From contig NZ_JAMHIV010000017.1 of assembly GCF_023897065.1 (NCBI RefSeq), positions 62,001-126,000 of the forward strand: a stretch of 64,000 nucleotides of DNA. Reading direction: 5' to 3'. Of the stretch, positions 11,898-25,338 are shown in pieces. Origin of the DNA: Crossiella sp. SN42 (GTDB lineage: Bacteria > Actinomycetota > Actinomycetes > Mycobacteriales > Pseudonocardiaceae). The position numbers were made by a program, and so were the translations under genes. Every line of letters begins with the position of its first letter. Positions within the stretch are counted from its first letter, which is position 1. The notes beneath the pieces were generated by a model, which was not told where the DNA came from, ran no database searches, and saw only the letters and a program-made list of their open reading frames with translations.

Positions 11898-13271
11898 GTG
11901 ACCACCTACGCGGAACGTGAGCCGGAACAGCGTCCGACCGACGACTCAACCCATCCGCGTAGCAGCCCAACCCCAGCCCCAGCCCCAACCCCAGCCAAGC
12001 GCCCAGGCATGTTCGCCTCGCTGCGCGCCCGCAACTACCGCTACTTCATCGCGGGCCAGATCGTCTCGCTGATCGGCGTGTGGATGCAGCGGGTCGCCCA
12101 GGACTGGCTGGTCCTGGACCTCTCGCACGGCAACGCGATCGCGCTCGGCATCGCGATGGCCCTGCAGTTCGCGCCCACCCTGGTGTTCTCGCTGTGGGCG
12201 GGCGTGCTGGCCGACCGGATGGACAAGCGCAAGCTGCTGATCGGCCTGCAGACCGCGATGGGCCTGTGCGCGCTGGTGCTCGGCCTGCTGGCGGTCACCG
12301 GCGCCGCGCAGCTCTGGCACGTCTACGCGCTCTGCCTGGCGCTGGGCTGCTTCACCGCGGTGGAGACGCCGGTGCGGCAGTCCTTCGTGGTGGAGATGGT
12401 CGGCAAGGACCAGGTGACCAACGCGGTCGCGCTGAACTCGATGAACTTCAACATGGCCCGGATCACCGGCCCGGCCATCGCCGGCCTGCTGATCACGCTG
12501 ATCGGCACCGGCTGGGTGTTCCTGCTCAACGCGGCCACCTTCGTCGCGGTGATCCTCGGCCTGGCCCTGATGAACCCGGCCCAGCTGCACCGCAACCCGC
12601 CGGTGCCCAGGGCCAAGGGCCAGCTGCGCGAGGGCCTGCGCTACGTCCGCGGCCGCAAGGACCTGGTCGTGGTGATGGTGCTGGTGTTCTTCGTCAGCAC
12701 CTTCGGCCTGAACTTCAGCAGCACGCTGGCGGTGGTGGCGCGCAACGTCTTCGGCCGCGACGCCGACGGCTACGGCCTGCTCTCCACCCTGCTGGCCGCC
12801 GGCACCTTCCTGGGCGCGCTGCTGGCCGCCCGGCGCAGCACCAAGGGCAAGCCCAGGCTGCGGGTGATGATCGGCGGCGCGGCGGTGTTCGGGGTGCTGG
12901 AGATCGTGCTCGGCCTGATGCCCACCTTCACCGCGCTGGGCCTGGTGCTGATCCCCACCGGCATCGCCGTGATGACGTTCACAACCACGGCCAACGCCAC
13001 CGTCCAGCTGGCCGTCCGGCCGGACATGCGCGGCCGGGTGATGGGCCTGTACATGCTGGTCTTCCTGGGTGGCACCCCGCTGGGCAGCCCGGTGATGGGG
13101 TGGATCGCGCAGGAGTACGGCGGGCAGATGCCGCTGCTGGTGGGCGGGGTGGTCTCGCTGCTGGCCGCAATCGTCTGCGGAGCCGTTCTCGCAGGTCGCG
13201 GCGGCATCCGCTGGCCGGTCGGCCGCTGGCCACTCTTTCGGGCCAGAAGGCGTGGGTTGACCGAGGAGTGA
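11898..13271 (+). CDS. MFS exporter of the EntS/MFS_3 type
   Basis: A 457-residue, 12-helix major facilitator. The soluble start is Pro/Ala-rich (PTPAPAPTPAKRP, encoded by a CCCAGC/CCCAAC hexamer repeat at about 11968-11998). The transporter begins MFASLRARNYRYFIAGQ, with GVWMQRVAQDWLVLDLS and ADRMDKRKLL as in the enterobactin-exporter-like (EntS, MFS_3) subgroup, which exports siderophores, macrolides and other small molecules. It is co-transcribed with the MarR regulator. An iron box overlaps its stop codon but would not control it. The substrate is unknown, and a siderophore is only one of several options. Confidence 0.85.
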   Translation: MTTYAEREPEQRPTDDSTHPRSSPTPAPAPTPAKRPGMFASLRARNYRYFIAGQIVSLIGVWMQRVAQDWLVLDLSHGNAIALGIAMALQFAPTLVFSLWAGVLADRMDKRKLLIGLQTAMGLCALVLGLLAVTGAAQLWHVYALCLALGCFTAVETPVRQSFVVEMVGKDQVTNAVALNSMNFNMARITGPAIAGLLITLIGTGWVFLLNAATFVAVILGLALMNPAQLHRNPPVPRAKGQLREGLRYVRGRKDLVVVMVLVFFVSTFGLNFSSTLAVVARNVFGRDADGYGLLSTLLAAGTFLGALLAARRSTKGKPRLRVMIGGAAVFGVLEIVLGLMPTFTALGLVLIPTGIAVMTFTTTANATVQLAVRPDMRGRVMGLYMLVFLGGTPLGSPVMGWIAQEYGGQMPLLVGGVVSLLAAIVCGAVLAGRGGIRWPVGRWPLFRARRRGLTEE

Positions 13272-13287
13272 AGTAAGGCTAACCTAA
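13269..13287. promoter_or_regulatory. IdeR/DtxR-type iron box, orphan
   Basis: TGAAGTAAGGCTAACCTAA matches 16 of 19 positions of the consensus TTAGGTTAGGCTAACCTAA. It overlaps the MFS stop codon, with no gene start downstream on the plus strand before the terminator at 13331, and it faces the 3' end of the superoxide dismutase gene on the other strand. Confidence 0.7.
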
Positions 13288-14174: not shown

Positions 14175-14295
14175 ATCAGCACCAGTAGGAACAGCACACG
14201 CCTTCGCGCAGGGGAAGCCGGTCGAAATCCGGCGCTGACCCGCAACGGTGGGCCGCGACACGCGGCGAGCCCGAGTACCTGCCGCAAGGTGCGAC
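14175..14295 (+). ncRNA. Cobalamin (AdoCbl) riboswitch
   Basis: The strongly conserved B12-aptamer core is present: GGGAAGCCGGTCGAAATCC starting near 14212, then CGCTGACCCGCAACGGT at about 14233-14249, and GAGCCCGAGTACCTGCC near 14267-14283. It lies in the 5' leader of the substrate-binding protein gene at 14331. Binding of cobalamin is expected to reduce expression of the importer operon. The exact outer limits of the aptamer are approximate. Confidence 0.93.
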
Positions 14296-14330
14296 CCACC
14301 GATCTCCGTCGAGGCTTGCGGAAGGTGTCC

Positions 14331-15302
14331 ATGAAGAACTCGTTGCTCGCCGCTGTGTGCGCGCTCACGCTGCTCATCCCGGCCTGCGGGAACCCGGCGG
14401 CCGCGCCCAGCGCCCCGGCCGCGCAGGAGATCGGCAACTGCGGCCGGACGCAGAAGTTCGACGGCCCGCCGAAGCGGATCCTCAGCCTGAACCAGCACGC
14501 CACCGAGATCCTGGTCGCGCTCGGTGTGACCGACCGGATCGTCGGCACCGCCTTCCCGGACACCCCGGACGTGCCTGCCGAGATCGCCGCGGACTACGCC
14601 AAGGTCAAGACCATCGCGGAGAAGTACCCGAGCGCCGAGCAACTGCTGGGCGCCGAGCCGGACCTGGTGGTCGGCGGCTACGCCAGCGCCTTCGCCGAGA
14701 AGGACGGCCGTGGCCGGGAAGCCTTGGAGGCCAAGGGCATCCGCACCTTCCTGCTGTCGGAGAACTGCCCGGACGCGACCGCGTCGATCAGCACCTACAC
14801 CGAGGACCTGACCGCGCTGGGCCGGGCGCTGGGCGTGACCGACCGGGCCGCGAAGCTGGTGGAGCAGACCACCAAGGCGGTCGAGGAGGTCACCGCCAAG
14901 GTCGCCGCGGCGAACCGGCCCGCGGTGCCGGTGTTCTTCTACGACAGCGGTGAGCAGGCCCCGTTCACCGTGGGCGGCCGCGGCCTCGGCAACGACCTGG
15001 CCAGGCGCGCGGGCGGGCGCAACATCTTCGCCGACGTGGCCAAGGTCTTCGGCGACGCCAGCTGGGAGCAGGTCGCCGAGCGCGCGCCCGAGGTGATCGT
15101 GCTGGTGGACTACCTCGGCGACAACGGCGGCGTGGACGCCAAACGCCGTTTCCTGGCAGCACATCCGCTGGCCTCGGGCACCCCGGCGATGCGGAACAAG
15201 CGGCTGGTCACGCTGACCCTGCCGGACCTGATCGAGGGCATCCGGCTGCCCGCCGCGCTGCGCACGCTGGCCGCCGGCGTGCACCCGGACCTCTTCCGGT
15301 GA
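14331..15302 (+). CDS. btuF: Corrinoid-type ABC importer, substrate-binding lipoprotein (BtuF-like)
   Basis: A 323-residue lipoprotein with signal peptide and lipobox LIPAC (Cys near residue 18), followed by a class III periplasmic-binding fold. It begins with PPKRILSLNQHATEILVALG. This fold binds B12, haem or Fe-siderophores. The cobalamin riboswitch directly upstream makes a corrinoid the likely ligand. Close homologues are often labelled putative F420-0 ABC transporter subunits, a name that came from co-occurrence rather than biochemistry. The ATG at 14331 has GGAAGG five bases upstream. The permease start overlaps its stop (GTGA). Confidence 0.82.
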   Translation: MKNSLLAAVCALTLLIPACGNPAAAPSAPAAQEIGNCGRTQKFDGPPKRILSLNQHATEILVALGVTDRIVGTAFPDTPDVPAEIAADYAKVKTIAEKYPSAEQLLGAEPDLVVGGYASAFAEKDGRGREALEAKGIRTFLLSENCPDATASISTYTEDLTALGRALGVTDRAAKLVEQTTKAVEEVTAKVAAANRPAVPVFFYDSGEQAPFTVGGRGLGNDLARRAGGRNIFADVAKVFGDASWEQVAERAPEVIVLVDYLGDNGGVDAKRRFLAAHPLASGTPAMRNKRLVTLTLPDLIEGIRLPAALRTLAAGVHPDLFR

Positions 15303-16330
15303 CCCGGATCCCCCTCGGCCTGACCCTGCTGCTCGCGATCCTGGCGCTGCTCGGCGCCGCCAGCCTGGCCCTGTCCTTCGGGTCGGTGGCGGTGCCGGTC
15401 GGCCAGGTGTGGCGGATCCTGCTGCACTGGGTCGCGCCGGGGCTGGTGGAGGCCGACTGGTCGCCGGTGCGGGCCTCGATCATCCGCGAGTCCCGGCTGC
15501 CCAGGGTGGTGCTGGCGGTGCTGGTCGGGGCCGCGCTGGCGCTGGCCGGGGCGGTGGCGCAGATCGTCACCCGCAACCCGCTGGCCGACCCGTACCTGCT
15601 GGGCGTCAACTTCGGCGCCGGGTTCCTGGTCGCGCTGGTGCTGGTGGTCGGGATCGGTGCGGGCGCGCTGGGCGCGGCCACCGTGCCGATCGCGGCCTTC
15701 CTCGGCGCGCTGCTGGCCCTGGTGCTGGTGCTCGCGGTGGCCGGCAGGCTCGGCTCGCCGACCGCGCTGGTGCTCGGCGGCCTCAGCGTCGGCCAGGTGT
15801 TCTTCGCCGGCATCCTGATGGTGATCTTCCTGTTCGCCAAGGGGGACCAGGCCAAGCAGGTCATGTTCTGGCTCAGCGGCGGACTCGGTGACGCCCGCTG
15901 GCCCACCATGGTGGTGCCGGCCGCGGTGCTCGTGCTGGCGCTGGGTGCCGGCATGGCGGCCGGGCGGTGGCTGAACCTGCTGCACGCCGGAGACGACGGC
16001 GCCGCCGCCCTCGGCGTGGACCCGAAGCGGCTCCGGCTGGTGGCGTTGATCGCGGTGGCACTGCTGGCCGGGACCTCGGTCGCGGTGGCCGGTGGCATCG
16101 CCTTCGTCGGCCTGATCGTGCCGCAGGCGGCCGCGTTCCTGGTCGGCGCGGACGCCAGGCGGCTGCTGCCGGTGTCGGCGCTGCTGGGCGGGTTGTTCCT
16201 GGTCGCCACCGATCTGCTGTCCCGGATCGTGATCTCTCCGCTGGAGATCCCGGTCGGCGCGGTCACTTCCGCGATCGGCGGGGTGGTGTTCCTGGTGCTG
16301 CTGTACCGGCGACGGGGGAGGGTGGCATGA
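15299..16330 (+). CDS. btuC: Corrinoid-type ABC importer, permease (BtuC/FecCD-like)
   Basis: A 343-residue membrane protein of the FecCD/BtuC family with about ten helices. The signatures are RLPRVVLAVLVGAALALAGA near residue 62 and the conserved AGGIAFVGLIVPQAA cytoplasmic coupling region near residue 262. It forms the membrane channel of the importer with the flanking substrate-binding and ATPase subunits. The start overlaps the previous stop (GTGA), and the next ATG overlaps its own stop (ATGA). The three genes are one transcription and translation unit under the riboswitch. Confidence 0.88.
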   Translation: MTRIPLGLTLLLAILALLGAASLALSFGSVAVPVGQVWRILLHWVAPGLVEADWSPVRASIIRESRLPRVVLAVLVGAALALAGAVAQIVTRNPLADPYLLGVNFGAGFLVALVLVVGIGAGALGAATVPIAAFLGALLALVLVLAVAGRLGSPTALVLGGLSVGQVFFAGILMVIFLFAKGDQAKQVMFWLSGGLGDARWPTMVVPAAVLVLALGAGMAAGRWLNLLHAGDDGAAALGVDPKRLRLVALIAVALLAGTSVAVAGGIAFVGLIVPQAAAFLVGADARRLLPVSALLGGLFLVATDLLSRIVISPLEIPVGAVTSAIGGVVFLVLLYRRRGRVA

Positions 16331-17100
16331 GCGTGCGCACCGAGGACCTGCGGGTCGCGCTCGGCGGCCGGATCGTGGTCGACGGGGTGAGCCTGGCACT
16401 CGCGCCAGGCGAGGTGCTGGGGCTGGTGGGCCCCAACGGTTCCGGCAAGACCTCGCTACTGCGCACGGTCTACCGCGCGCTGGTCCCCGAGGGTGGAGCG
16501 GTGCTGGTGGACCAGCGGCCGGTCACCGGGTACGGACGGCGGGAGCTGGCCAGGATGCTGGCCGCGACCACCCAGGAGCCTGAGCACAGCGCCTCGCTGA
16601 CCGTGGCCGAGGTGGTCGGCCAGGGCCGCACCTGCCACCGCGGCTGGCTGGAGTCGCTGCGCGCGCAGGACCACGCCGCGGTGGCCGAGGCGATCGCGCT
16701 GGCCGACCTGGAAGCCTTGCGGGACCGGGATGTCCGCACCCTCTCCGGCGGCGAGCGGCAGCGGGTCTCCATCGCCCGCGCGCTGGCCCAGCAGCCGCGG
16801 ATCCTGGTGCTGGACGAGCCGACCAACCACCTCGACCTGCGGCACCAGCTCGCCGTGCTGGAGCTGCTGCGGGCCCGCGCGGCCGAGGGCCTGTCCGTGC
16901 TGCTCACCCTGCACGACCTGCGGCTGGCGGTGGAGCACTGCGACCGGCTGGTGGTGCTGGACCACGGCAAGGTGGTCACCGCGGGGCCGCCGGCGCAGGT
17001 GCTCACCGCCGAGCTGCTGGCCGGGGTGTTCGGCGTGCGCGGTCAGCTGCGCGCGCTCGCCGACGGACGGTCCACTGTGGACATTGAAGGAACGGTGTGA
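16327..17100 (+). CDS. btuD: Corrinoid-type ABC importer, ATPase (BtuD-like)
   Basis: A 257-residue ABC ATPase with Walker A GPNGSGKTS (near residue 38), Q-loop TTQEPEHSAS, signature LSGGERQRVS and Walker B ILVLDEPTNHLDLR. These are typical of the FepC/BtuD group that powers FecCD permeases. It overlaps the permease by ATGA. The last codons before GTV and the stop hold a copy of the dispersed palindrome. No gene follows on this strand; the next gene is convergent with a gap of five bases between stops. Confidence 0.88.
   Translation: MSVRTEDLRVALGGRIVVDGVSLALAPGEVLGLVGPNGSGKTSLLRTVYRALVPEGGAVLVDQRPVTGYGRRELARMLAATTQEPEHSASLTVAEVVGQGRTCHRGWLESLRAQDHAAVAEAIALADLEALRDRDVRTLSGGERQRVSIARALAQQPRILVLDEPTNHLDLRHQLAVLELLRARAAEGLSVLLTLHDLRLAVEHCDRLVVLDHGKVVTAGPPAQVLTAELLAGVFGVRGQLRALADGRSTVDIEGTV
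17070..17082. repeat. Dispersed 13-bp palindrome, copy 3
   Basis: Exact copy 18 bp before the end of the ABC ATPase gene. Confidence 0.85.
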
Positions 17101-17105
17101 GCTGC

Positions 17106-17966
17106 CTAGGCCAGTTCCTTGGCGAACTGGCGGATCAGGCGCAGCGAGTCCGCGGTGCTCAGCGCGTGTTCCACGGCCTGGTTGAACGCCGAGTCGAACT
17201 CGCGCAGCCGCACCGGGTGGTCGATCAGCGAGGTCGAGGTGACCGTCTCCTGCCACAGCAGCGTGGGCAGCCGCTGGCTCGGGAAGTCCAGCAGGTGGAA
17301 CGCGCCGCCGCCGAGGGCGTGGAAGGCCGCCGCGGTGAACGGCACCAGCCGGATGTCCACAGTGGACGGTCGCTGCTCGACCATGGCGGCCAGGTGCCGC
17401 AGCTGTGCGGCCAGCACCGCGCGGCCGCCGACCTGCTGGTGCAGCACGGCCTCGGTGACCACCGCGGTGAGCCGCACCGGCTCCGGCCCGTCCAGCCGGT
17501 GCTGCCGGATCAGCCTGGCCTCCAGCACCCGCTCCACGTCGGCCATCCGGATGTTCGGCCCAGCGCCGCGGATCACCGCGCGGGCGTAGTCCTCGGTCTG
17601 CAGCAGGGCAGGCACCAGGCCGCCGTCGTAGGAGCGGATCGCGGCCGCGCCGTGCTCGTAGCCGAAGAAGCGCAGGGTGTCGTCGGTGAACAGCCCGGAG
17701 TAGGCCTGCCACCAGCTGCGCTGCTCGGCCGCGGCGCGCAGCTCGATCAGCCCGGCGTAGGACTCCTCGCTCAGCCGGTAGGCCTTGGCCAGCGCCTTCA
17801 GCCGCACGTCGGTGATCTTCAGCTTCCCGCCCTCGACCCCGGAGACGTAGGGCTGGGTGAGCTTGGCGGCCTTGGCCGCGGCGACCGCGGTCAGGCCGGT
17901 CAGCTCCCGGTGCTCGCGCAGCCGGAGGCCGAGCTCCCAGTTGGCGACGGTGGGTGAAGTGGGCAC
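17106..17966 (-). CDS. XRE-family regulator with DUF5753 domain
   Basis: A 286-residue protein. An N-terminal helix-turn-helix (about residues 10-65, LRLREHRELTGLTAVAAAKA and TQPYVSGVEGGKLKI) is followed by the DUF5753 domain, which begins WWQAYSGLFTDDTLRFFGYE. This architecture is very common in actinomycetes, usually next to a small DUF397 gene. Here its divergent partner is a FhuF-like reductase instead. The GTG at 17966 is chosen because GGAG lies eight bases before it; a GTG two codons upstream is possible. The 73-bp divergent region contains two adjacent palindromes that are candidate operators. Confidence 0.85.
   Translation of the reverse strand: MPTSPTVANWELGLRLREHRELTGLTAVAAAKAAKLTQPYVSGVEGGKLKITDVRLKALAKAYRLSEESYAGLIELRAAAEQRSWWQAYSGLFTDDTLRFFGYEHGAAAIRSYDGGLVPALLQTEDYARAVIRGAGPNIRMADVERVLEARLIRQHRLDGPEPVRLTAVVTEAVLHQQVGGRAVLAAQLRHLAAMVEQRPSTVDIRLVPFTAAAFHALGGGAFHLLDFPSQRLPTLLWQETVTSTSLIDHPVRLREFDSAFNQAVEHALSTADSLRLIRQFAKELA
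17355..17367. repeat. Dispersed 13-bp palindrome, copy 4
   Basis: Exact copy in the XRE/DUF5753 gene, read there as Ser-Thr-Val-Asp. Confidence 0.85.
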
Positions 17967-17989
17967 GAACACGACTCCAGATGACGGTG

Positions 17990-18012
17990 CTGATATCAGT
18001 CGAGAAGTCTCG
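17990..18012. promoter_or_regulatory. Adjacent palindromes in the XRE/FhuF divergent region
   Basis: CTGATATCAG (17990-17999, perfect) is followed at once by CGAGA-AG-TCTCG (18001-18012, perfect arms). They lie midway between the two divergent starts and are candidate operators for the XRE protein. Confidence 0.4.
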
Positions 18013-18039
18013 CACACACCCGTCGGCCACGAAGGAGTG

Positions 18040-18705
18040 ATGGCCGCCGCCTGCCCGGAGATCAGGGTCCGCTGCGACCCGGCCCCGCCGGACGCGCTGT
18101 CCTGCGCCGAGGTCGCGGCCGATCCGGCGGTGGCGTTGCGGCTGGTCGAGGCGGAGATGCAGGCCACCGCGCACCGGGTGCACGCGGCGGCCGCGCGCAC
18201 CGCGCTGTCGGTATACGCGATCAAGATCGGCCAGGCCACGGTGCTGCCCTGGGCGCTGGGCCTGGGCTGGTGGCACCCGGACCGCGTCCGGCTGGGCGGC
18301 GATGGCGGCCACGGCTGGCACACCCTGCACCTGCCCGGCGATCCGGCTCCGGTGGAGCTGGACGAGCTGGTCGGCGAGGTCTTCGAGGGGCACCTGTTCC
18401 GGGTGGCCGGGCACCTGCGGGTGGTCCGCGGCTGCGCGGAACCGGCCATGCGCGGGCAGATCGGTTTCGGGATCGGCACCGCCCTCGCCCGCGCGGCTCG
18501 GGGCGGTGCCGACTCAGCCCGGCTTTCCCTGGCGTACCAACGGTTGTGCTCAGTCGTGCCGTGGCTGGCCCCGACCGGTCGCCTGCTCACCGGCGCGAAG
18601 GGCCTGACCTACCTGCGCAACCACTGCTGCCTGTTCTGGACCGCCCCGGCGGAGGACGCCTGCCGGAGCTGCCCCAGACGGACCGACGAGGACCGGCTCA
18701 GCTGA
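18040..18705 (+). CDS. FhuF-like (2Fe-2S) ferric-siderophore reductase
   Basis: A 221-residue protein whose C-terminus holds CC-x10-C-x2-C (CCLFWTAPAEDACRSC, residues about 197-212). This is the [2Fe-2S] cluster motif of the FhuF family, which reduces ferric siderophores in the cytoplasm to release iron. The ATG at 18040 sits just after GAAGGAG, and a GTG directly before it is an alternative. It is convergent with the haem-uptake operon: its stop overlaps the last gene of that operon by 8 bp. Position beside an iron-uptake locus supports an iron-release role. Confidence 0.8.
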   Translation: MAAACPEIRVRCDPAPPDALSCAEVAADPAVALRLVEAEMQATAHRVHAAAARTALSVYAIKIGQATVLPWALGLGWWHPDRVRLGGDGGHGWHTLHLPGDPAPVELDELVGEVFEGHLFRVAGHLRVVRGCAEPAMRGQIGFGIGTALARAARGGADSARLSLAYQRLCSVVPWLAPTGRLLTGAKGLTYLRNHCCLFWTAPAEDACRSCPRRTDEDRLS

Positions 18706-19201
18706 ACTGCACCGGGATGAACACGTCGAAGCTGCGGTCACTGGCCTGCCAGTGGTCCCGGCGGGTGATGATCGCGCAGGTCTCCACGGTGCAGTCCAGG
18801 CCACCGGCGTTCTGCTTGAGGAAGATCTTCGCGGTGAACGAGCCGTCCGCCGCGATCGGATAGGTGTTGCCGCCCATCGGGGTGTTGGTCACCCACGCGG
18901 ACGGGCCGACCCCGGTGCCGCCCTGCCCGTCCCCGCCCTGGCAGGGGCCGGGCTTGACGCCGTAGCTGAGGTCCGCGGGAACCTTGCACAGCGCCACGTA
19001 GTAGCCCTTGTCGGTGTGGTAACCGGTGCCCGTCACGGTGATCTCCTGGCCGTTGACCGCGATCGCGGTGGCCTCGGAGGCGGTGATGGTGCGGCCGTTG
19101 CGGCTGGCCGAGTCCGGAGCCGCCAGGGCGGTGCCGGTCATGGCCAGCACACCGGCGAGCGCGCCGAAGGAGACGAGCGCGGCCTTCACCTTGTTCTTCA
19201 T
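18698..19201 (-). CDS. Secreted four-cysteine (neocarzinostatin-like) protein, last gene of the haem-type operon
   Basis: A 167-residue protein with a clear signal peptide (MKNKVKAALVSFGALAGVLA, cleavage after ALAAP) and no membrane anchor, so it is released. The mature domain has ITVTGTGYHTDKGYYVALC, a second cysteine in PGPCQGGDG, then LDCTVETCAIITRRDH and a terminal DVFIPVQF. Two other proteins of this locus share the layout, and the strand and C-x4-C pattern resembles the neocarzinostatin apoprotein fold. GAGGGA is placed six bases before the ATG. The start overlaps the stop of the upstream propeller gene (ATGA). It is a candidate diffusible ligand-binding protein; the ligand is unproven. 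Confidence 0.75.
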   Translation of the reverse strand: MKNKVKAALVSFGALAGVLAMTGTALAAPDSASRNGRTITASEATAIAVNGQEITVTGTGYHTDKGYYVALCKVPADLSYGVKPGPCQGGDGQGGTGVGPSAWVTNTPMGGNTYPIAADGSFTAKIFLKQNAGGLDCTVETCAIITRRDHWQASDRSFDVFIPVQFS

Positions 19202-20673
19202 GCTGATTCCCTCTTCTTGGTTCGGTGGTGGAACAGCAGCAGGGCGGTGCCGGCCGTCAGGAGGGCCAGCCCGGTCAGCAACGGGAAGATCGGTTCCGCG
19301 CCGGTCTTGGCCAGCCTGGGGGTGGGCGGCTGGACCTGGGCCGGTGGCGGGGCGACGACCGGGGTGGTGGTGGTCGTCGTCGTGCTGGAAGTCGTGGAGG
19401 CCGGTGGGGGAGCGGTGGTGGTGCTGGTCGGCGTGGTCGTGGTGGGCCCGCCGGGCACGGTGAGCACCGCGGCCGCGGTCGGCGTGCTGCCGGTGGCGTT
19501 GCTGAACACGGCCCGGTAGTGCCTGCCGGACAACCGGGGCTGCGCGAGCACGGTCAGCGTGTCGCCGGTCTCGGCCAGGTCGGCCCAACTGCGGCCGCCG
19601 TCGATGCTCTCCTGCCAGCGCACCGCGGTCGCGCCACGGGCGCCGGCCTGGAATCGCGCGGGCTGGCCGGGCTCGGCCTCGGTGCTGACCGGCTCGCTCA
19701 GCAGCACCGGCGCGGCGAACCGGGCGAAGACCTGGAGGTTGTTGCCGTCGGCCACGTACACCGCGCCGGTGGCCGGGTTCACCCCGATCGTCCCGGGCGC
19801 GGTCACCTCCAGGGTGCCGATCGCCTTGCGCGCCACCGGGTCCAGCACCGCGACCTGGCCGAGCTCGGCCTGCCCGGTGTAGAGGAACCCGGTGGCCGGG
19901 TCGACCGCGGCCCGGCCCGCGCCCGCCCCGGCGGCGAAGGGTTCGCCGAGCACCTGGTTGGTCCTGGTGTCCACGGTGGTCACCGTGCCGTTGCCCTGGT
20001 TCACCGCGTACAACCGGTGCAGCACCGGGTCAACGGCCAGCCCGCGCGGGTTCGCGCCCACCGGGATGGTGGTGATCACCTTGTGCGCCTTGGTGTCCAG
20101 CACCGAGACGGTGTTGTCGTCCAGGTTGGACACATAGGCGCGGTCGCCGTGCACCACCACCTGGTCCGGTCCGGAACCCACCGGGATCGAGGCGATCACC
20201 TTGCGCTGCACCGGATCCAGCACCGACACCACGGCCGCGCCGCCCTCGGCCACGAACACCTGGCCGGAGCCCTCGTCCACACCGATGCCGTTGGGACCCG
20301 CGCCGACCGGGATGGTCGCGGTGACCTGCCGGGTGGCCGCGTCGACCACCGACACCGAGGGCTTCTTGTCGATCACGCCCCGGTTGACCGCGAACACGGT
20401 GCCGGTGCGGGTGTTCGCGGCCAGCTGCGCGGGCAGGTTGCCCAGCTTGACCGGGGTGCCGACGACCTGGTGCCCGCCGTCCAGCGCGGCGGCGGTGCCG
20501 TTGCGGGTGCTGGTGAACCAGGTCTCGCCGCCGAGCGCGACGAAGGAGTTCACGCCCGGCACGGCGACCGTGGCCGCTTTCTCGTGCCGCACGGGCTCGG
20601 CCGCGTGCGCGGACGGCGCGGCCGCCAGCAGCGCGCCCGCGGTCAGCAGCAGCACGGGAAGTCGGTGGCGCAT
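19198..20673 (-). CDS. LAXTG-anchored beta-propeller (YVTN/NHL-type) surface protein
   Basis: A 491-residue exported protein. The signal peptide (about residues 1-25, ending APSAHA) is followed by a beta-propeller of repeats such as VSVLDTKAHKVITTIPVGAN and VVSVLDPVQRKVIASIPVGS (about 30-330). An Ig-like segment and a Thr/Pro-rich spacer come next. A sorting signal LAKTGAEP, a membrane helix and an RTKKRESA tail end the protein, as class E sortase substrates do. The ATG at 20673 is preferred over one at 20691 because GGGAG lies six bases before it and the signal peptide begins there. It follows the ATPase gene directly in the operon. Likely a surface-exposed receptor or scaffold; ligand unknown. 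Confidence 0.8.
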   Translation of the reverse strand: MRHRLPVLLLTAGALLAAAPSAHAAEPVRHEKAATVAVPGVNSFVALGGETWFTSTRNGTAAALDGGHQVVGTPVKLGNLPAQLAANTRTGTVFAVNRGVIDKKPSVSVVDAATRQVTATIPVGAGPNGIGVDEGSGQVFVAEGGAAVVSVLDPVQRKVIASIPVGSGPDQVVVHGDRAYVSNLDDNTVSVLDTKAHKVITTIPVGANPRGLAVDPVLHRLYAVNQGNGTVTTVDTRTNQVLGEPFAAGAGAGRAAVDPATGFLYTGQAELGQVAVLDPVARKAIGTLEVTAPGTIGVNPATGAVYVADGNNLQVFARFAAPVLLSEPVSTEAEPGQPARFQAGARGATAVRWQESIDGGRSWADLAETGDTLTVLAQPRLSGRHYRAVFSNATGSTPTAAAVLTVPGGPTTTTPTSTTTAPPPASTTSSTTTTTTTPVVAPPPAQVQPPTPRLAKTGAEPIFPLLTGLALLTAGTALLLFHHRTKKRESA

Positions 20674-20687
20674 GACGCTCTCCCAGG

Positions 20688-21470
20688 TCATTCGTGGTCT
20701 CGGCGGGGCAGCACCAGTGGCGCCCCGGTTCGGGGATGGGCCAGCACCTCGACCTGGTGCCGGTAGACCCGGCTGAGCAGCTCGCCGGTGAGCACCTCGG
20801 CCGGTGGCCCGGCCGCGGCCAGCTCGCCGCCGGAGAGCAGCGCGACCCGGTCCGCGTAGGCCGCGGCCAGGCCGAGGTCGTGCAGCACCACGACCACCGC
20901 GTCCCCGGCCCCGGCCCGGCGTTTCGCGATGCGCAGCACCGCTTCCTGGTGCCGCAGGTCCAGCGCGGCGGTGGGCTCGTCGAGCAGCAGCAGCCCGGTC
21001 CGCTGGGCCAGCACCCTGGCCAGCGCCACCCTGGCCCGCTCGCCGCCGGAGAGCGAGGGGAACCGGCGCTGGGCGAACTCGGTCACCTCGGTCTCCCGCA
21101 TGGCCTCGGCGATGACCTCCTCGTCCAGCTCGGCCGCCGGCGTGCCTGCCCAGGGCGCGCGGCCCATCTCGACCACCTCGGCCACGGTGAACGGGAAGGA
21201 CAGCAGAACCTGTTGCGGCAGCACGGCCCGCAGCTTCGCCAGCTCCTTCGGCCGGTAGCCGCCAACGGGTTTCCCGTGCACCAGCACCTGACCTGCCGAG
21301 GGCGGGAGGTCCCCGGCCAGCGCGGCCAGCAACGTCGACTTGCCCGCGCCGTTGGGACCGAGCAGCGCCAGCACCTCGCCGGTGCGCGCGCTCAGGCTCA
21401 CCCCGTGCAGCACCGGCTGCCCGCCGAGGACCACGCCGACGCCGAGGGTCTCGGCGATCACCCGGCTCAT
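20688..21470 (-). CDS. hmuV: Haem-type ABC importer ATPase (HmuV-like)
   Basis: A 260-residue ABC ATPase with Walker A GPNGAGKSTL, Q-loop LPQQVLLSFPFTVAEVV, signature LSGGERARVALARVLAQ and Walker B LLLLDEPTAALDL. The LPQ-x5-FPFTV stretch is typical of HmuV haem importers. The ATG at 21470 overlaps the permease stop. The downstream propeller gene begins 15 bases past its stop, or overlaps it if the earlier ATG is used. Confidence 0.88.
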   Translation of the reverse strand: MSRVIAETLGVGVVLGGQPVLHGVSLSARTGEVLALLGPNGAGKSTLLAALAGDLPPSAGQVLVHGKPVGGYRPKELAKLRAVLPQQVLLSFPFTVAEVVEMGRAPWAGTPAAELDEEVIAEAMRETEVTEFAQRRFPSLSGGERARVALARVLAQRTGLLLLDEPTAALDLRHQEAVLRIAKRRAGAGDAVVVVLHDLGLAAAYADRVALLSGGELAAAGPPAEVLTGELLSRVYRHQVEVLAHPRTGAPLVLPRRDHE

Positions 21471-22495
21471 GCCCACCCACCCTGACGGGCCCTGGTGCGG
21501 CGCAGCAGCCAGAAGAAGAACGGCCCGCCGACCAGCGCGGTCAGCGCCCCGATGGGCAGCTCCACCGGCGCCATCGCGGTGCGCGCCACCAGGTCCCCGG
21601 CCACCACGACCACCGCCCCGCCCAGCGCGCTGACCGGGATCAGGTACCGGTGCCCAGGCCCGATGACCATGCGAACGACGTGCGGCACAACGAGTCCGAC
21701 GAACCCGATCATGCCCGCCACGGCCACCGCCGCCGAGGTCAGCAGGGCCACCACGAACATCAAGGTGCCGCGCAGCCGCTCGATGTGCACGCCCAGGTGC
21801 CTGGCCGGTCGCTCGCCGAGCGCGAGCAGGTCCAGCTGCCTGGCGAACAGCGGTGCGAGCAGCAGCCCGGCGACCGCGCAGGGCAGCACGGCCAGCACCT
21901 TCGGCCAGGTGGTCTGGGCCAGGCTGCCCATCATCCAGAACACCACCGAGCGCAGCTGGGCGTCGTTGGAGTAGGTGAGCAGCAGGTTGATCACCGCGCC
22001 GGTGGCCGCGTTCACCGCGATCCCGGTCAGCACCAGGGTGACCACCTCGGTCCGCCCGCCGGAGCGGGACACCAGGTACACCACCGCCACCGTGACCAGC
22101 CCGCCGATGAAGGCCGCCGCGGGCAGCGTCCAGGTGCCCAGCGTGGTCACCCCGAGCACGGTCACCGCGCTGGCCGCCACCGCCGCGCCGCCGGAGACAC
22201 CGACCACCGCCGGTTCGGCCAGCGGGTTGCCGAACACGCCCTGCATCACCGCGCCCGCGCAGGCCAGCGAGGCCCCGACCAGCACCCCGAGCAGCACCCG
22301 GGGAAACCGGATCTGCCACAGCACCGCGTCCAGGTAGCCGGTCGGCGGGGCCTCGGCCAACCCGAGCCGGTGCGCCACCGAGGCGAGCACATCGGCCACC
22401 GGGCTCGGGAAGGCCCCGATGCCCGCGCCCAGCAGGCACAGCAGGACGAGCGCGATCCCCAGGCCCAGCACCAGGGCCAGGCGGCGTGTTCGCAT
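21467..22495 (-). CDS. hmuU: Haem-type ABC importer permease (HmuU-like)
   Basis: A 342-residue FecCD-family permease with about ten helices. The signatures are IRFPRVLLGVLVGASLACAG, GVFGNPLAEPAVVGVSGGAA and the coupling loop GMIGFVGLVVPHVVRM, all standard in HmuU/BtuC-type proteins. It forms the pore for the substrate delivered by the adjacent HmuT-like lipoprotein. It overlaps both neighbours by ATGA, so stoichiometric synthesis of the three subunits is expected. Substrate assignment to haem rests on the HmuT-like partner. Confidence 0.9.
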   Translation of the reverse strand: MRTRRLALVLGLGIALVLLCLLGAGIGAFPSPVADVLASVAHRLGLAEAPPTGYLDAVLWQIRFPRVLLGVLVGASLACAGAVMQGVFGNPLAEPAVVGVSGGAAVAASAVTVLGVTTLGTWTLPAAAFIGGLVTVAVVYLVSRSGGRTEVVTLVLTGIAVNAATGAVINLLLTYSNDAQLRSVVFWMMGSLAQTTWPKVLAVLPCAVAGLLLAPLFARQLDLLALGERPARHLGVHIERLRGTLMFVVALLTSAAVAVAGMIGFVGLVVPHVVRMVIGPGHRYLIPVSALGGAVVVVAGDLVARTAMAPVELPIGALTALVGGPFFFWLLRRTRARQGGWA

Positions 22496-23466
22496 CAGCG
22501 CAGGCCCTCCGCCAGCGCGGTGACCACCAGCGCGGTGCGCGGCCCGAAGTTGAGCAGCACCCCGTCCTCGATCGCGACCACCCGCCGGTTCGCCGCGGCC
22601 GGGGTCTGCGCGACCCCGGGCAGCTTGAGCAGCCCGTCCACGCCCTGCACCGAGTCCAGTCCCTTGCTCATCACCAGGAAGACGTCCGGTTGCGCCTTGA
22701 CCAGCGACTCCGCGGTCAGCGGGGTGAACGGTCCCAGCCCGAGCTCGGCGCCCACGTCACTGGCCCCGGCCGCCTCGATGATGGAGTCCGCGCCGGATCC
22801 CTTGCCGCCCAACAGGTAGACCGAGGCCGACCCGCGCAGGTACAGGAACGCCACCCGCGGTTTCGCTTGTCCCTGCGGCACTTTGGCCCTGGCCGCCTCG
22901 ATCTCCGCCCTGGTCCGCCCGGCCAGCTCCTTGCCCGCGGCGGGCACGCCGAGCGCGGCGGCCACCGCCTCGATCCGGGTGAAGGTCTCCGGCATCCGCT
23001 TGGCCTCGGGCAGCACCACCACCGGCACCCCGGAGTCGCGCAGCTGGCTGATCGCCTCCGGCGGCCCGACGCCCGGCTCGGTGAGGATCACGCTGGGGCG
23101 CAACGACAACGTGCTCTCCGCGGACACGTCGTGCCCGGAGGTCACCACCGGCAGGGCGCGCGCGGGCTCGAAGGTGGCCGCCACGTCCCGGCCGACCACG
23201 TTCGCGCCCAGCCCCAGGGTGAACACCACCTCGGAGATCGCCCCGGACAGCGGGATGATCCGGGAGGCGTCGGTGACGGTCACCCTGCGCCCGTCCACCG
23301 AGTCCACCGTCACCGGCAGCACCGGCGCGGGCGTGGCCAGCGGCTTGATCCGCTGCGCGTTCACCTCGGCCGCCACCGCGGAACTGGGCGCGTCGGCCGC
23401 CGGGGCGGGCGCGGCGCACCCGGCCAGCGCGAGCAGCAGCGCGCCCGCGAGCCACCGCCCGCTCAC
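22495..23466 (-). CDS. hmuT: Haem-type ABC importer substrate-binding lipoprotein (HmuT-like)
   Basis: A 323-residue lipoprotein (lipobox LAGC, Cys17) that captures substrate at the outer face of the membrane. The core, VTVTDASRIIPLSGAISEVVF and the later AISQLRDSGVPVVVLPEA, is diagnostic of HmuT haem-binding proteins rather than siderophore binders. Corynebacterial HmuT ligates haem with one His and one Tyr; the corresponding candidates here are His112 (TSGHDVSAES) and Tyr209 or Tyr217 (FLYLRGSASVYLLGG). The GTG at 23466 overlaps the preceding stop (GTGA). It sits in the middle of the operon, after a cysteine-domain membrane protein that probably hands ligand to it. Confidence 0.88.
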   Translation of the reverse strand: MSGRWLAGALLLALAGCAAPAPAADAPSSAVAAEVNAQRIKPLATPAPVLPVTVDSVDGRRVTVTDASRIIPLSGAISEVVFTLGLGANVVGRDVAATFEPARALPVVTSGHDVSAESTLSLRPSVILTEPGVGPPEAISQLRDSGVPVVVLPEAKRMPETFTRIEAVAAALGVPAAGKELAGRTRAEIEAARAKVPQGQAKPRVAFLYLRGSASVYLLGGKGSGADSIIEAAGASDVGAELGLGPFTPLTAESLVKAQPDVFLVMSKGLDSVQGVDGLLKLPGVAQTPAAANRRVVAIEDGVLLNFGPRTALVVTALAEGLR

Positions 23467-24134
23467 GAGGCGGACCGCTTGCGCCGCGCGCGGAAGACCA
23501 GCAGCGCCGCCAGCAACGCGACCACCACACCGCCACCGAGCGCCACCGGCAGCAGCGCCGCGGTCTGCTCCGCCGCGGGCACCTCGATCGCGGGCAGCTG
23601 CTCCGGCCCGAACTTCACCGGCACCACCACGTCCTGGGTGCGGTCCGCGGTGCGGGTGTGGTCGGTGCGGGTGACCAGCGCGCACTTCACCCCGCTGTCC
23701 CGGCAGTCGATCTTCGGCTCGGCCGAGAGCACCGGGCTGATCTTCAACTCGGCGGTGAACGTGCCGCCCTCGCCGAAGGGCTTGGCCAGGTCCTTGCCGT
23801 AGGCGGGCGGGTTGTTGGAGATCCACTTCGAGGACCCGCCGGCCCCGCTCAGGTCCGCGCCCCCGCCGCACGGACCCGGCTGCTTGCCCGGCCCGTTGTC
23901 CACGCAGAAGGCCACGTAGATGCCCTTGTCCACCCGGTAGCCCTGGCCGGTGACGGTCACCGTCGCGCCGGCCTCGTCCAGCCCGCTGGTCTTGGCGACG
24001 GTGAGCTTCTGCCCGTAGTCGCCGGTGACCGTGGTGCCCTTCGCGTCCTGGGTGACCAGCCCCGCGCCCGGCACCCGGCTCACGGTCACCGCCGCTGGCG
24101 GCACGTATCCGCTCGGCGTGGTCTGCTGAGTCAT
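23463..24134 (-). CDS. Membrane-anchored four-cysteine (neocarzinostatin-like) protein, first gene of the haem-type operon
   Basis: A 223-residue protein with the shared domain at about 45-175: VTVTGQGYRVDKGIYVAFC, then PGPCGGGAD, IDCRDSGVKCALVTRTDH and DVVVPVKF. A C-terminal membrane helix (about 190-212) and RARRKRSAS tail follow, but there is no LPXTG/LAXTG motif. Oddly, no N-terminal signal peptide is visible (MTQQTTPSGYVPPAAVTVSR), and upstream in-frame codons reach a stop without an alternative start. By analogy it should face outward, so how its N-terminus crosses the membrane is unclear. The gene begins 35 bp from the iron box and leads the six-gene operon. Confidence 0.7.
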   Translation of the reverse strand: MTQQTTPSGYVPPAAVTVSRVPGAGLVTQDAKGTTVTGDYGQKLTVAKTSGLDEAGATVTVTGQGYRVDKGIYVAFCVDNGPGKQPGPCGGGADLSGAGGSSKWISNNPPAYGKDLAKPFGEGGTFTAELKISPVLSAEPKIDCRDSGVKCALVTRTDHTRTADRTQDVVVPVKFGPEQLPAIEVPAAEQTAALLPVALGGGVVVALLAALLVFRARRKRSAS

Positions 24135-24168
24135 TCCGCCCCCACTAGCCAGGTGAGTCTTGCCTATC

Positions 24169-24187
24169 TATTGTTAGCCTAACCTAA
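24169..24187. promoter_or_regulatory. IdeR/DtxR iron box between the divergent haem-locus promoters
   Basis: On the minus strand the site reads TTAGGTTAGGCTAACAATA, identical to the consensus TTAGGTTAGGCTAACCTAA over its first 15 bases (16 of 19 overall). It lies 35 bp from the operon start at 24134 and 30 bp from the divergent start at 24217, well placed to repress both when iron is plentiful. Confidence 0.85.
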
Positions 24188-24216
24188 CTAAGCTGGTTTG
24201 TTGATGGGGTGAACGG

Positions 24217-25338
24217 ATGATGCGATCGGTCCGTCTGGCCGCCGCGGTGTTGCTGGGGCTCGTCTTCGCGCTACCGGGAACCGCTGTGGCCCAACAGGTT
24301 CCGGTCCTGTCCACGGACCGGGCCAGCGGCCTGGACCCGGCGGGGGAGCGCATCGTGGTGCGCGGCGCCGGGTTCGCCGCGCAGAGCACGCTGGCCCTGG
24401 GCGCCTGGTCCGGCAGCACCGCCGACCCGGCCGGACCGGCCACCATCACCACCGGTGCCGACGGCGGTTTCGCGGCCGAACTGCTGGTCAGCCCGGCCTT
24501 CGTGCCCGAGGGCAGCCCGATCGAGCTGCGGGTGAGCGTGGCCGGAGTGGCCCCGCTGCCACTGAAGTTCGGCGTGAACTCGCCAGCCACCACGCCGAGC
24601 AGTCCGCCGTCGAGCAGCCCGCCACCCGCCGCGACCTCCAGCGCCGCGCCGAGTGTCGACGTCAACCGCCGCGAGGCCGCCCCGCAGGCCGAGACCACCG
24701 CGAGCCCGAAGCTGTCCGCCTCCAAAACCCAGGGCCTCAAAGCCGCGGGGGAGAAGGTCACCGTCACCGGCTCCGGGTACAACGAGGCCAAGGGCATCTA
24801 CGTGGCCGTCTGCGTGGACAACGGCCCCGGCAAGCAGCCGACGCCCTGCCTCGGCGGCGTCGACATGTCCGGCAAGAACGGCAACTCGGTCTGGATCTCC
24901 AGCAACCCGCCGCCCTACGGCAAGGACCTGGCCAAGCCCTACGGCCCCGGCGGCACCTTCTCCGTCGAGCTGACCGTGACCGCCAAGGACGAGTACACCG
25001 ACTGCGCCGTGCTCAAGTGCGCCATCGTCAGCCGCGCCGACCACACCCTGGGCGCGGACCGCAGCCAGGACGTCGTCCTGCCGATCACCTTCGGCGGCAA
25101 CGGAAACCCCGCGCCGACCACGACCGCCACCACCTCGCCCGGCGGAGGTGGCAGTGGCGGTGGCGACCAGCCGGGCGGCGGTACGGGCGGGACCGGCGGC
25201 ACCGGTGGTGGGCGGCCCGGGGGGCTGGCCAACACCGGCGCCGGGCCGATCCTGCCGATCGCCCTCGGCGGCCTGGCCCTGCTCGCCGGTGGCGCGTGCG
25301 CGCTCTACGCGGGCCGTCGAAGGTCCACTGTGGACTGA
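24217..25338 (+). CDS. LAXTG-anchored surface protein with tandem Ig-like and four-cysteine domains
   Basis: A 373-residue exported protein: signal peptide (about 1-25, ending TAVAQ), then an Ig-like domain without cysteines (about 27-125, ERIVVRGAGF). A Ser/Pro/Thr linker leads to the shared four-cysteine domain (about 170-290: VTVTGSGYNEAKGIYVAVC, PTPCLGGVD, TDCAVLKCAIVSRADH, DVVLPITF). A Gly-rich spacer, the sorting signal LANTGAGP, a membrane helix and a basic tail complete it. It is probably attached to the wall by a class E sortase. It is divergent from the HmuTUV operon across an iron box, so it should be induced by iron limitation together with it. A surface haem or iron-ligand receptor is the working hypothesis. 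The last codons hold the dispersed palindrome. Confidence 0.78.
   Translation: MMRSVRLAAAVLLGLVFALPGTAVAQQVPVLSTDRASGLDPAGERIVVRGAGFAAQSTLALGAWSGSTADPAGPATITTGADGGFAAELLVSPAFVPEGSPIELRVSVAGVAPLPLKFGVNSPATTPSSPPSSSPPPAATSSAAPSVDVNRREAAPQAETTASPKLSASKTQGLKAAGEKVTVTGSGYNEAKGIYVAVCVDNGPGKQPTPCLGGVDMSGKNGNSVWISSNPPPYGKDLAKPYGPGGTFSVELTVTAKDEYTDCAVLKCAIVSRADHTLGADRSQDVVLPITFGGNGNPAPTTTATTSPGGGGSGGGDQPGGGTGGTGGTGGGRPGGLANTGAGPILPIALGGLALLAGGACALYAGRRRSTVD
25323..25335. repeat. Dispersed 13-bp palindrome, copy 5
   Basis: Exact copy encoding the final Ser-Thr-Val-Asp of the LAXTG surface protein, with its last base three bases before the end of the stop codon. Confidence 0.85.

Follow-up and report, generated by a model that had tools for sequence, protein, structure and literature searches.

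An iron-boxed HmuTUV locus of Crossiella sp. SN42 with neocarzinostatin-fold domains as candidate surface haem binders

A stretch of 64,000 nucleotides from Crossiella sp. SN42 (contig NZ_JAMHIV010000017.1, positions 62,001-126,000 of the forward strand; whole genome 9.7 Mb), referred to below as the window, carries the genes of the importer HmuTUV together with three proteins that share one small four-cysteine domain. The favoured reading of this locus, held with a probability of about 0.68, is iron-regulated haem acquisition in which domains of predicted neocarzinostatin (NCS) fold act as hemophores and relay haem to HmuTUV. Surface haem capture in actinobacteria is known mainly from the HtaA-type domains of corynebacteria. 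The type of system, surface binders combined with HmuTUV, is already known; the novelty is that this family of binders becomes a candidate for haem. Because the pairing of the NCS domain with HmuT recurs across actinobacteria, including small-genome organisms that seem not to make haem, the domain has probably been overlooked as a component that catches haem. If this is true, a second class of haem-capture domain would be present in 77 of the 394 Actinomycetes genomes sampled, about one in five, and an antibiotic-carrier fold would serve nutrient capture. The two invariant candidate ligands described below make the proposal testable with one small protein.

Organization of the locus and its cargo

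The locus consists of a six-gene operon on the minus strand, whose adjoining genes overlap or nearly touch, and a divergent gene on the plus strand. The operon encodes a protein with an NCS-fold domain and a C-terminal transmembrane helix (23463-24134; 223 residues, four cysteines, Tyr73, Trp104 and R-x-D-His159), the haem-binding lipoprotein HmuT (22495-23466; lipobox Cys17), the FecCD-type permease HmuU (21467-22495), the haem ATP-binding cassette (ABC) ATPase HmuV (20688-21473), a protein with a signal peptide, a YVTN-type beta-propeller, an immunoglobulin (Ig)-like stretch and a LAKTG sorting signal (19198-20673), and a secreted single NCS-fold domain with a signal peptide (18698-19201; 167 residues, Tyr68, Trp103 and R-x-D-His150). 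The divergent gene (24217-25338) encodes a wall-anchored protein in which a signal peptide and a degenerate N-terminal NCS-like stretch are followed by a full NCS-fold domain (24703-25095; Tyr195, Trp226 and R-x-D-His276), a Gly-rich stalk, and LANTG with a transmembrane segment. Modelled on its own with AlphaFold, the degenerate stretch is of low confidence, with a predicted local distance difference test (pLDDT) score of 52.

The divergent starts are separated by 82 bp, and this promoter region contains an IdeR/DtxR-type iron box at 24169-24187 (minus strand). The box matches 16 of 19 positions of the consensus TTAGGTTAGGCTAACCTAA; no site of that level occurred in 100 dinucleotide-shuffled windows. 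Across the whole genome, 11 distinct IdeR-like sites were found at no more than three mismatches, versus none for a reversed-pattern control, and there are two matches to DtxR/IdeR-family repressors. The first-pass annotation had described a six-gene operon and a divergent LAXTG gene around an IdeR box, and every one of these elements was recovered in place.

The importer components were assigned by profile: HmuT to PF01497 (E 4e-34), HmuU to PF01032 (E 2e-95), and HmuV to the curated haem ATPase model NF010068, against which it scores 323 bits (cut-off 261). The closest solved relatives of HmuT are the C. glutamicum protein CgHmuT (5az3) and a Roseiflexus protein (5gj3), both of them haem-binding. 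In CgHmuT, His141 and Tyr240 are the axial haem ligands and Arg242 is the hydrogen-bonding arginine, as described in PMC4926363; these residues align with His112, Tyr209 and Arg211 of the window HmuT. Among 63 HmuTs adjacent to NCS genes (window included), His112 is kept in 61, and both Tyr209 and Arg211 in all 63. The ligands initially suggested were His112, Tyr209 and Tyr217; the first two stand and are joined by Arg211, while Tyr217 is present in only 46 of the 63 and is not conserved. There is good support for haem as the cargo of the locus: the HmuT ligand triad, the HmuV score above the haem cut-off, the association with haem oxygenase and HtaA, and the link to ferrochelatase loss all point to it. 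Haem, with an iron chelate as the alternative, had also been the first proposal. The only PF01126 haem oxygenase of the genome lies outside the window on contig C11, with an IdeR box 147 bp before its matched start.

The shared domain

The three proteins encoded at 18698, 23463 and 24217 are true homologues (53% and 39% identity; E 7e-49 and 1e-20), as the first reading of the window had claimed. A profile search for HtaA or NEAT membership, also proposed at that stage, recognised neither family. HtaA (PF04213) gave no match up to E 10 in the whole genome, with a positive C. glutamicum control, so that the reported lack of HtaA holds, and no NEAT family occurred among the Pfam matches of the three window proteins or of 42 diverse domains. 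Membership of either family is consequently rejected. The PF00960 cut-off of 25 bits is exceeded by the 24217 protein, whose 30.4 bits are summed over two stretches (20.8 for the main domain alone), and is missed by the 23463 and 18698 proteins (21.3 and 19 bits). None of the three reaches the cut-off of NF040680, and membership of this enediyne chromoprotein equivalog is rejected for that reason. At E<=0.01, PF00960 matches 32 and NF040680 39 of the 42 diverse domains. The domain had been called unfamiliar; this is right as far as HtaA and NEAT are concerned, but a weak yet real similarity to the NCS family is present.

An AlphaFold (AF2) model of the domain, built from the 42-sequence alignment, has seven strands and a pLDDT of 93.8. 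When this predicted model was submitted to Foldseek, the four matches at E<=0.001 were all macromomycin or neocarzinostatin entries (best 2mcm, 2cbq and 1nco), with E 6.8e-6 for macromomycin and 2.3e-4 for neocarzinostatin. Template-modelling scores normalized by query length are 0.62-0.63 for 2mcm and 1nco and 0.55-0.56 for 2cbq. No HtaA structure is among the 50 Foldseek matches listed. The shared domain is, on this evidence, a distinct family with a predicted NCS fold, a seven-stranded sandwich.

Residue conservation was assessed in 293 distinct strong domains from 133 loci, using the numbering of the 24703-25095 domain. Tyr33, Cys37, Cys49, Trp64 and Cys106 are present in all 293, Cys101 in 280, and Arg111, Asp113 and His114 in all 292 domains having a letter at those positions. 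The order of the four cysteines appears to be the one expected for the two NCS disulphides. The Crossiella genome also holds a better NCS-family gene (G000:C1:547336-547662, locus L004; 70.7 bits to PF00960), which lies beside an ABC transporter and away from hmu. Its protein lacks, as judged by eye, the Tyr and RxDH of the hmu-linked domains, and its profile alignment to the hmu-linked family with hhalign is weak (E 0.09, Prob 0.6). Because of this weak alignment, kinship with classical NCS proteins rests on the Pfam and NCBIfam scores together with the fold.

The nearest solved relative by sequence profile is C. glutamicum ThiX (7qhm_M, E 1e-11), which shares the aligned Tyr, Trp and Asp-His. 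ThiX belongs to the cytochrome bcc-aa3 supercomplex as a lipoprotein subunit, and according to PMC8795186 its soluble domain is not resolved; the kinship to the NCS domain is a possible clue to the role of ThiX.

Several known systems can be compared with the locus. The corynebacterial HmuTUV system with HtaA, HtaB and ChtA likewise includes an importer, anchored and secreted binders built as beta-sandwiches, DtxR/IdeR-type control and haem oxygenase. It differs in that the Crossiella genome has no PF04213 and its candidate binder has the predicted NCS fold and two pairs of conserved Cys; many relatives of the Crossiella locus carry both NCS and HtaA domains, sometimes in one chain. The staphylococcal Isd system follows the same logic, in that beta-sandwich domains anchored by sortase pass haem on to a lipoprotein and an ABC importer, but the domain has no NEAT match and belongs to another sequence family. 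With the neocarzinostatin and macromomycin apoproteins (PF00960, NF040680) it shares the predicted fold, the matching Cys-pair order and a precedent as small-ligand carrier. Unlike them, it has invariant Tyr33, Trp64 and Arg-x-Asp-His, is linked to hmu, is often wall-anchored or part of a multidomain protein, and mostly scores below the family cut-offs.

No proposal that an NCS-like domain handles haem was found in the openly licensed PMC literature. The nearest is CwpG of Actinoplanes missouriensis, a candidate sortase substrate that has a neocarzinostatin-like domain (IPR002186; PMC13251363) and is set beside the hmu-linked protein here by its description; no haem role is given for it in that main text, in which the word "heme" occurs 0 times. 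In a Streptomyces coelicolor regulon study, the hmu locus is composed of hmuO, htaA and hmuTUV, and no NCS component is included where PMC12161575 lists it.

Distribution, fusions and haem synthesis

The genome sample comprised 394 Actinomycetes (class-level) genomes, with up to 10 candidates per genome scored for the domain and up to five for HmuT. The NCS domain was detected in 77 genomes, HtaA (PF04213, E<=0.01) in 92 and HmuT (E<=1e-20) in 129; in 70 of the 77 the NCS domain is accompanied by HmuT (Fisher p 3e-33, without phylogenetic correction). The neighbourhoods comprised the window and, from every one of the other 76 NCS genomes, one region of up to about 20 kb. In 63 of the 77 genomes an NCS domain has HmuT within 1.6 kb, and 26 have a haem oxygenase gene in the region. 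In view of this proximity of HmuT, a chance neighbourhood of the domain and hmuTUV is rejected. The 77 include 11 genomes with low-scoring domains only (best local score <100); among the 66 strong NCS genomes, HmuT is within 1.6 kb in 58. In G037 the two genes are on different contigs, the NCS gene at the end of one and HmuT at the start of the other, in G113 the NCS gene is near a contig start and HmuT was not found, and in G137 and G217 no HmuT was found at E 1e-20. A search of the plasmid collection gave no match.

The loci inspected by name number 69; they come from the 80 best of 405 stretches and consequently lean to close relatives. They include Crossiella, Allokutzneria, Motilibacter, Streptomyces, Actinoplanes, Actinomadura and Nakamurella, and 62 of the 69 contain HmuT. 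In Nakamurella silvestris, hmuV, hmuU, hmuT and haem oxygenase map to one strand with the NCS genes divergent, and in the Actinoplanes-type loci L083, L125 and L128 the NCS genes adjoin hmuTUV. In Streptomyces loci (L076, L066 and others), HmuT adjoins NCS genes and an HtaA-like protein. HmuU and HmuV were not detected in the same stretch in most of these Streptomyces loci; the permease partner may lie elsewhere or be too divergent.

Fusions were counted with a rebuilt HtaA profile. An NCS-like and an HtaA domain share one uninterrupted open frame in 21 of the 77 genomes, the NCS part scoring at least 25 bits in 18. According to PMC12494546, experiments have established that the HtaA (CR) domain binds haem, and the shared frames thus connect the NCS fold with a proven haem binder. 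Large frames, near 2500 residues, occur in six loci (L138, L145, L147, L150, L153 and L168) and combine three HtaA domains with two or three NCS-like ones; they adjoin hmuT except in L145, in whose genome HmuT was not found. In Streptomyces locus L076, a single chain runs from an NCS domain through a propeller-like part and an Ig domain to a second NCS domain, and its propeller-like/Ig segment is related to the window protein at 19198-20673 (30% identity, E 6e-13). Because this chain joins such a segment with NCS domains, the propeller-Ig protein of the window is likely part of the haem system.

Haem synthesis was assessed by ferrochelatase only, haem degradation by PF01126 only, and iron boxes were counted at >=15/19 anywhere in the fetched stretch. 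Ferrochelatase is missing in 31 of the 77 NCS genomes (24 of 30 in one batch and 7 of 47 in the other). Among these 31, a PF01126 haem oxygenase occurs in two (one fragmented over two contigs), and neither an IdeR box nor HtaA occurs in any; the 46 ferrochelatase-positive NCS genomes have haem oxygenase in 43, a box in 41 and HtaA in 39. Each ferrochelatase-negative genome nevertheless holds one to three NCS matches, and HmuT (E<=1e-20) is present in 28 of them. The same division is visible within family f37, where the sole ferrochelatase-positive genome (G116) has haem oxygenase and two boxes, while the nine ferrochelatase-negative ones have no box, with haem oxygenase, as fragments, in G312 alone. 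The 31 genomes belong to only four families (19, 9, 2 and 1) and the cross-tables are not corrected for phylogeny, so that the pattern represents few independent events.

Judged from gene content, the small-genome carriers of the NCS domain seem unable to make haem. The pattern can be read as two uses of one cargo: haem makers would take up haem as an iron source, under iron regulation and with degradation, and non-makers as a cofactor that is not iron-regulated and is kept whole. In the 31 ferrochelatase-negative genomes, which were searched for HtaA (absent) but not for NEAT or further families, no surface candidate other than the NCS domain came to light. Family f28 accounts for 19 of these genomes (1.3-1.9 Mb; locus G+C 44-51%), which look like members of the freshwater order Nanopelagicales. 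Haem auxotrophy is established for this order, and its recognition allowed stable cultivation, as reported in PMC10202952 and PMC12381374.

Proposed mechanism, rival readings and neighbouring genes

In the proposed mechanism, NCS-fold beta-sandwich domains would take the surface role of the HtaA CR domains in corynebacteria or the NEAT domains in Isd. The secreted single-domain protein and the LAXTG wall-anchored one would catch haem, free or from haemoproteins, and the membrane-proximal NCS protein would hand it to the lipoprotein HmuT, with ligation by His112 and Tyr209. HmuUV would then import the haem, and its iron would be freed by the haem oxygenase encoded on contig C11, which has a separate IdeR box. 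The scheme presumes that the NCS domain itself binds haem, that the cell regulates the locus by iron and that the relay runs in this direction. Tyr33 and/or His114 may serve as ligands of the haem iron, at or close to the cleft that accommodates the chromophore in neocarzinostatin; this is suggested because both residues are invariant and because CR domains, according to PMC12494546, use an axial Tyr with a helper His. A broader claim, for which the chances appear evenly balanced, is that the Tyr/Trp/Arg-x-Asp-His NCS domain forms a separate hemophore class beside NEAT, CR/HtaA, HasA and HmuY, serving haem both as iron source and as cofactor, and is the surface receptor for haem that has so far been missing in haem-auxotrophic actinobacteria of fresh water.

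Several observations weigh against haem binding by the domain or against the relay. The AlphaFold model holds no ligand, and the invariant Tyr, Trp and His could perhaps be structural. No haem role or link to haem uptake is given for ThiX where PMC8795186 describes it. The NCS domains fused to HtaA are of a divergent, lower-scoring kind, and in the 39 of the 77 genomes that also have HtaA, haem binding need not fall to the NCS domain. In G039, G143 and G378 a pair of NCS genes lies apart from HmuT, and in G301 HmuT was not found; these four genomes are judged to be of one genus, Streptomyces, and three of them have IdeR boxes. The membrane NCS protein (23463-24134) has, by eye, no recognisable signal peptide, and its counterpart in Crossiella sp. 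S99.2 (L061:8734-9441) likewise lacks one, although other relatives have it. The first-pass annotation had outlined a chain of released, wall-attached and membrane-relay binders, and this missing signal peptide weakens it. Its underlying observation is confirmed, and the haem-capture interpretation is supported.

Some of these points would fit a locus that imports haem while the NCS domain serves as a docking or haemoprotein-binding module, or as a linker between HmuT or HtaA and the wall, with Tyr, Trp and His as structural core or protein interface. The co-occurrence with HtaA in 39 genomes, the frames shared with NCS-like domains in 21 and the resemblance of the propeller-Ig partner to a protein-binding module agree with such a role, for which there is also precedent, since some Isd NEAT domains recognise haem-protein complexes and not haem, as stated in PMC12670364. 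It nevertheless appears unlikely, because the 31 genomes without ferrochelatase and HtaA retain NCS matches, 28 of them with HmuT, because the window encodes a stand-alone secreted single-domain form, and because the invariant Tyr and His are common haem ligands.

Import of another iron chelate or tetrapyrrole, such as a siderophore, cobalamin or coproporphyrin, is considered quite improbable. The top-scoring models of HmuU are of BtuC type, though it remains under their cut-offs, and iron boxes alone do not name a cargo, but the four lines of evidence that point to haem, from the HmuT triad to ferrochelatase loss, stand against it. A chance position of antibiotic-carrier (enediyne chromoprotein) relatives beside hmuTUV is hardly credible. 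PF00960 and NF040680 are indeed the best named family matches of the NCS-like proteins, but all three window proteins miss the NF040680 cut-off and two of them that of PF00960, the Tyr/Trp/RxDH signature is missing, by eye, from the better NCS-family member L004, and the proximity of HmuT in 63 of 77 genomes is not that of chance neighbours. Acquisition of haem through NCS-fold hemophore domains is consequently preferred.

Other genes near the hmu operon also have features related to iron. A second IdeR-like box (16/19) is located at 13269-13287 of the window (G000:C9:75269), at the 3' end of a major facilitator superfamily-type gene (11898-13271) and about 1 kb before an ABC set of iron-chelate/corrinoid type (14289-17100). 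The substrate-binding protein and ATPase of this set score best, below cut-off, on putative F420-0 transporter models, and a FecCD-like permease, recognised by eye, lies between them. Convergent with the hmu operon, the gene at 17947-18705 encodes an FhuF-like C-terminal 2Fe-2S motif (PF11575, 18.4 bits against a cut-off of 20.5), and its product is possibly a ferric-siderophore reductase.

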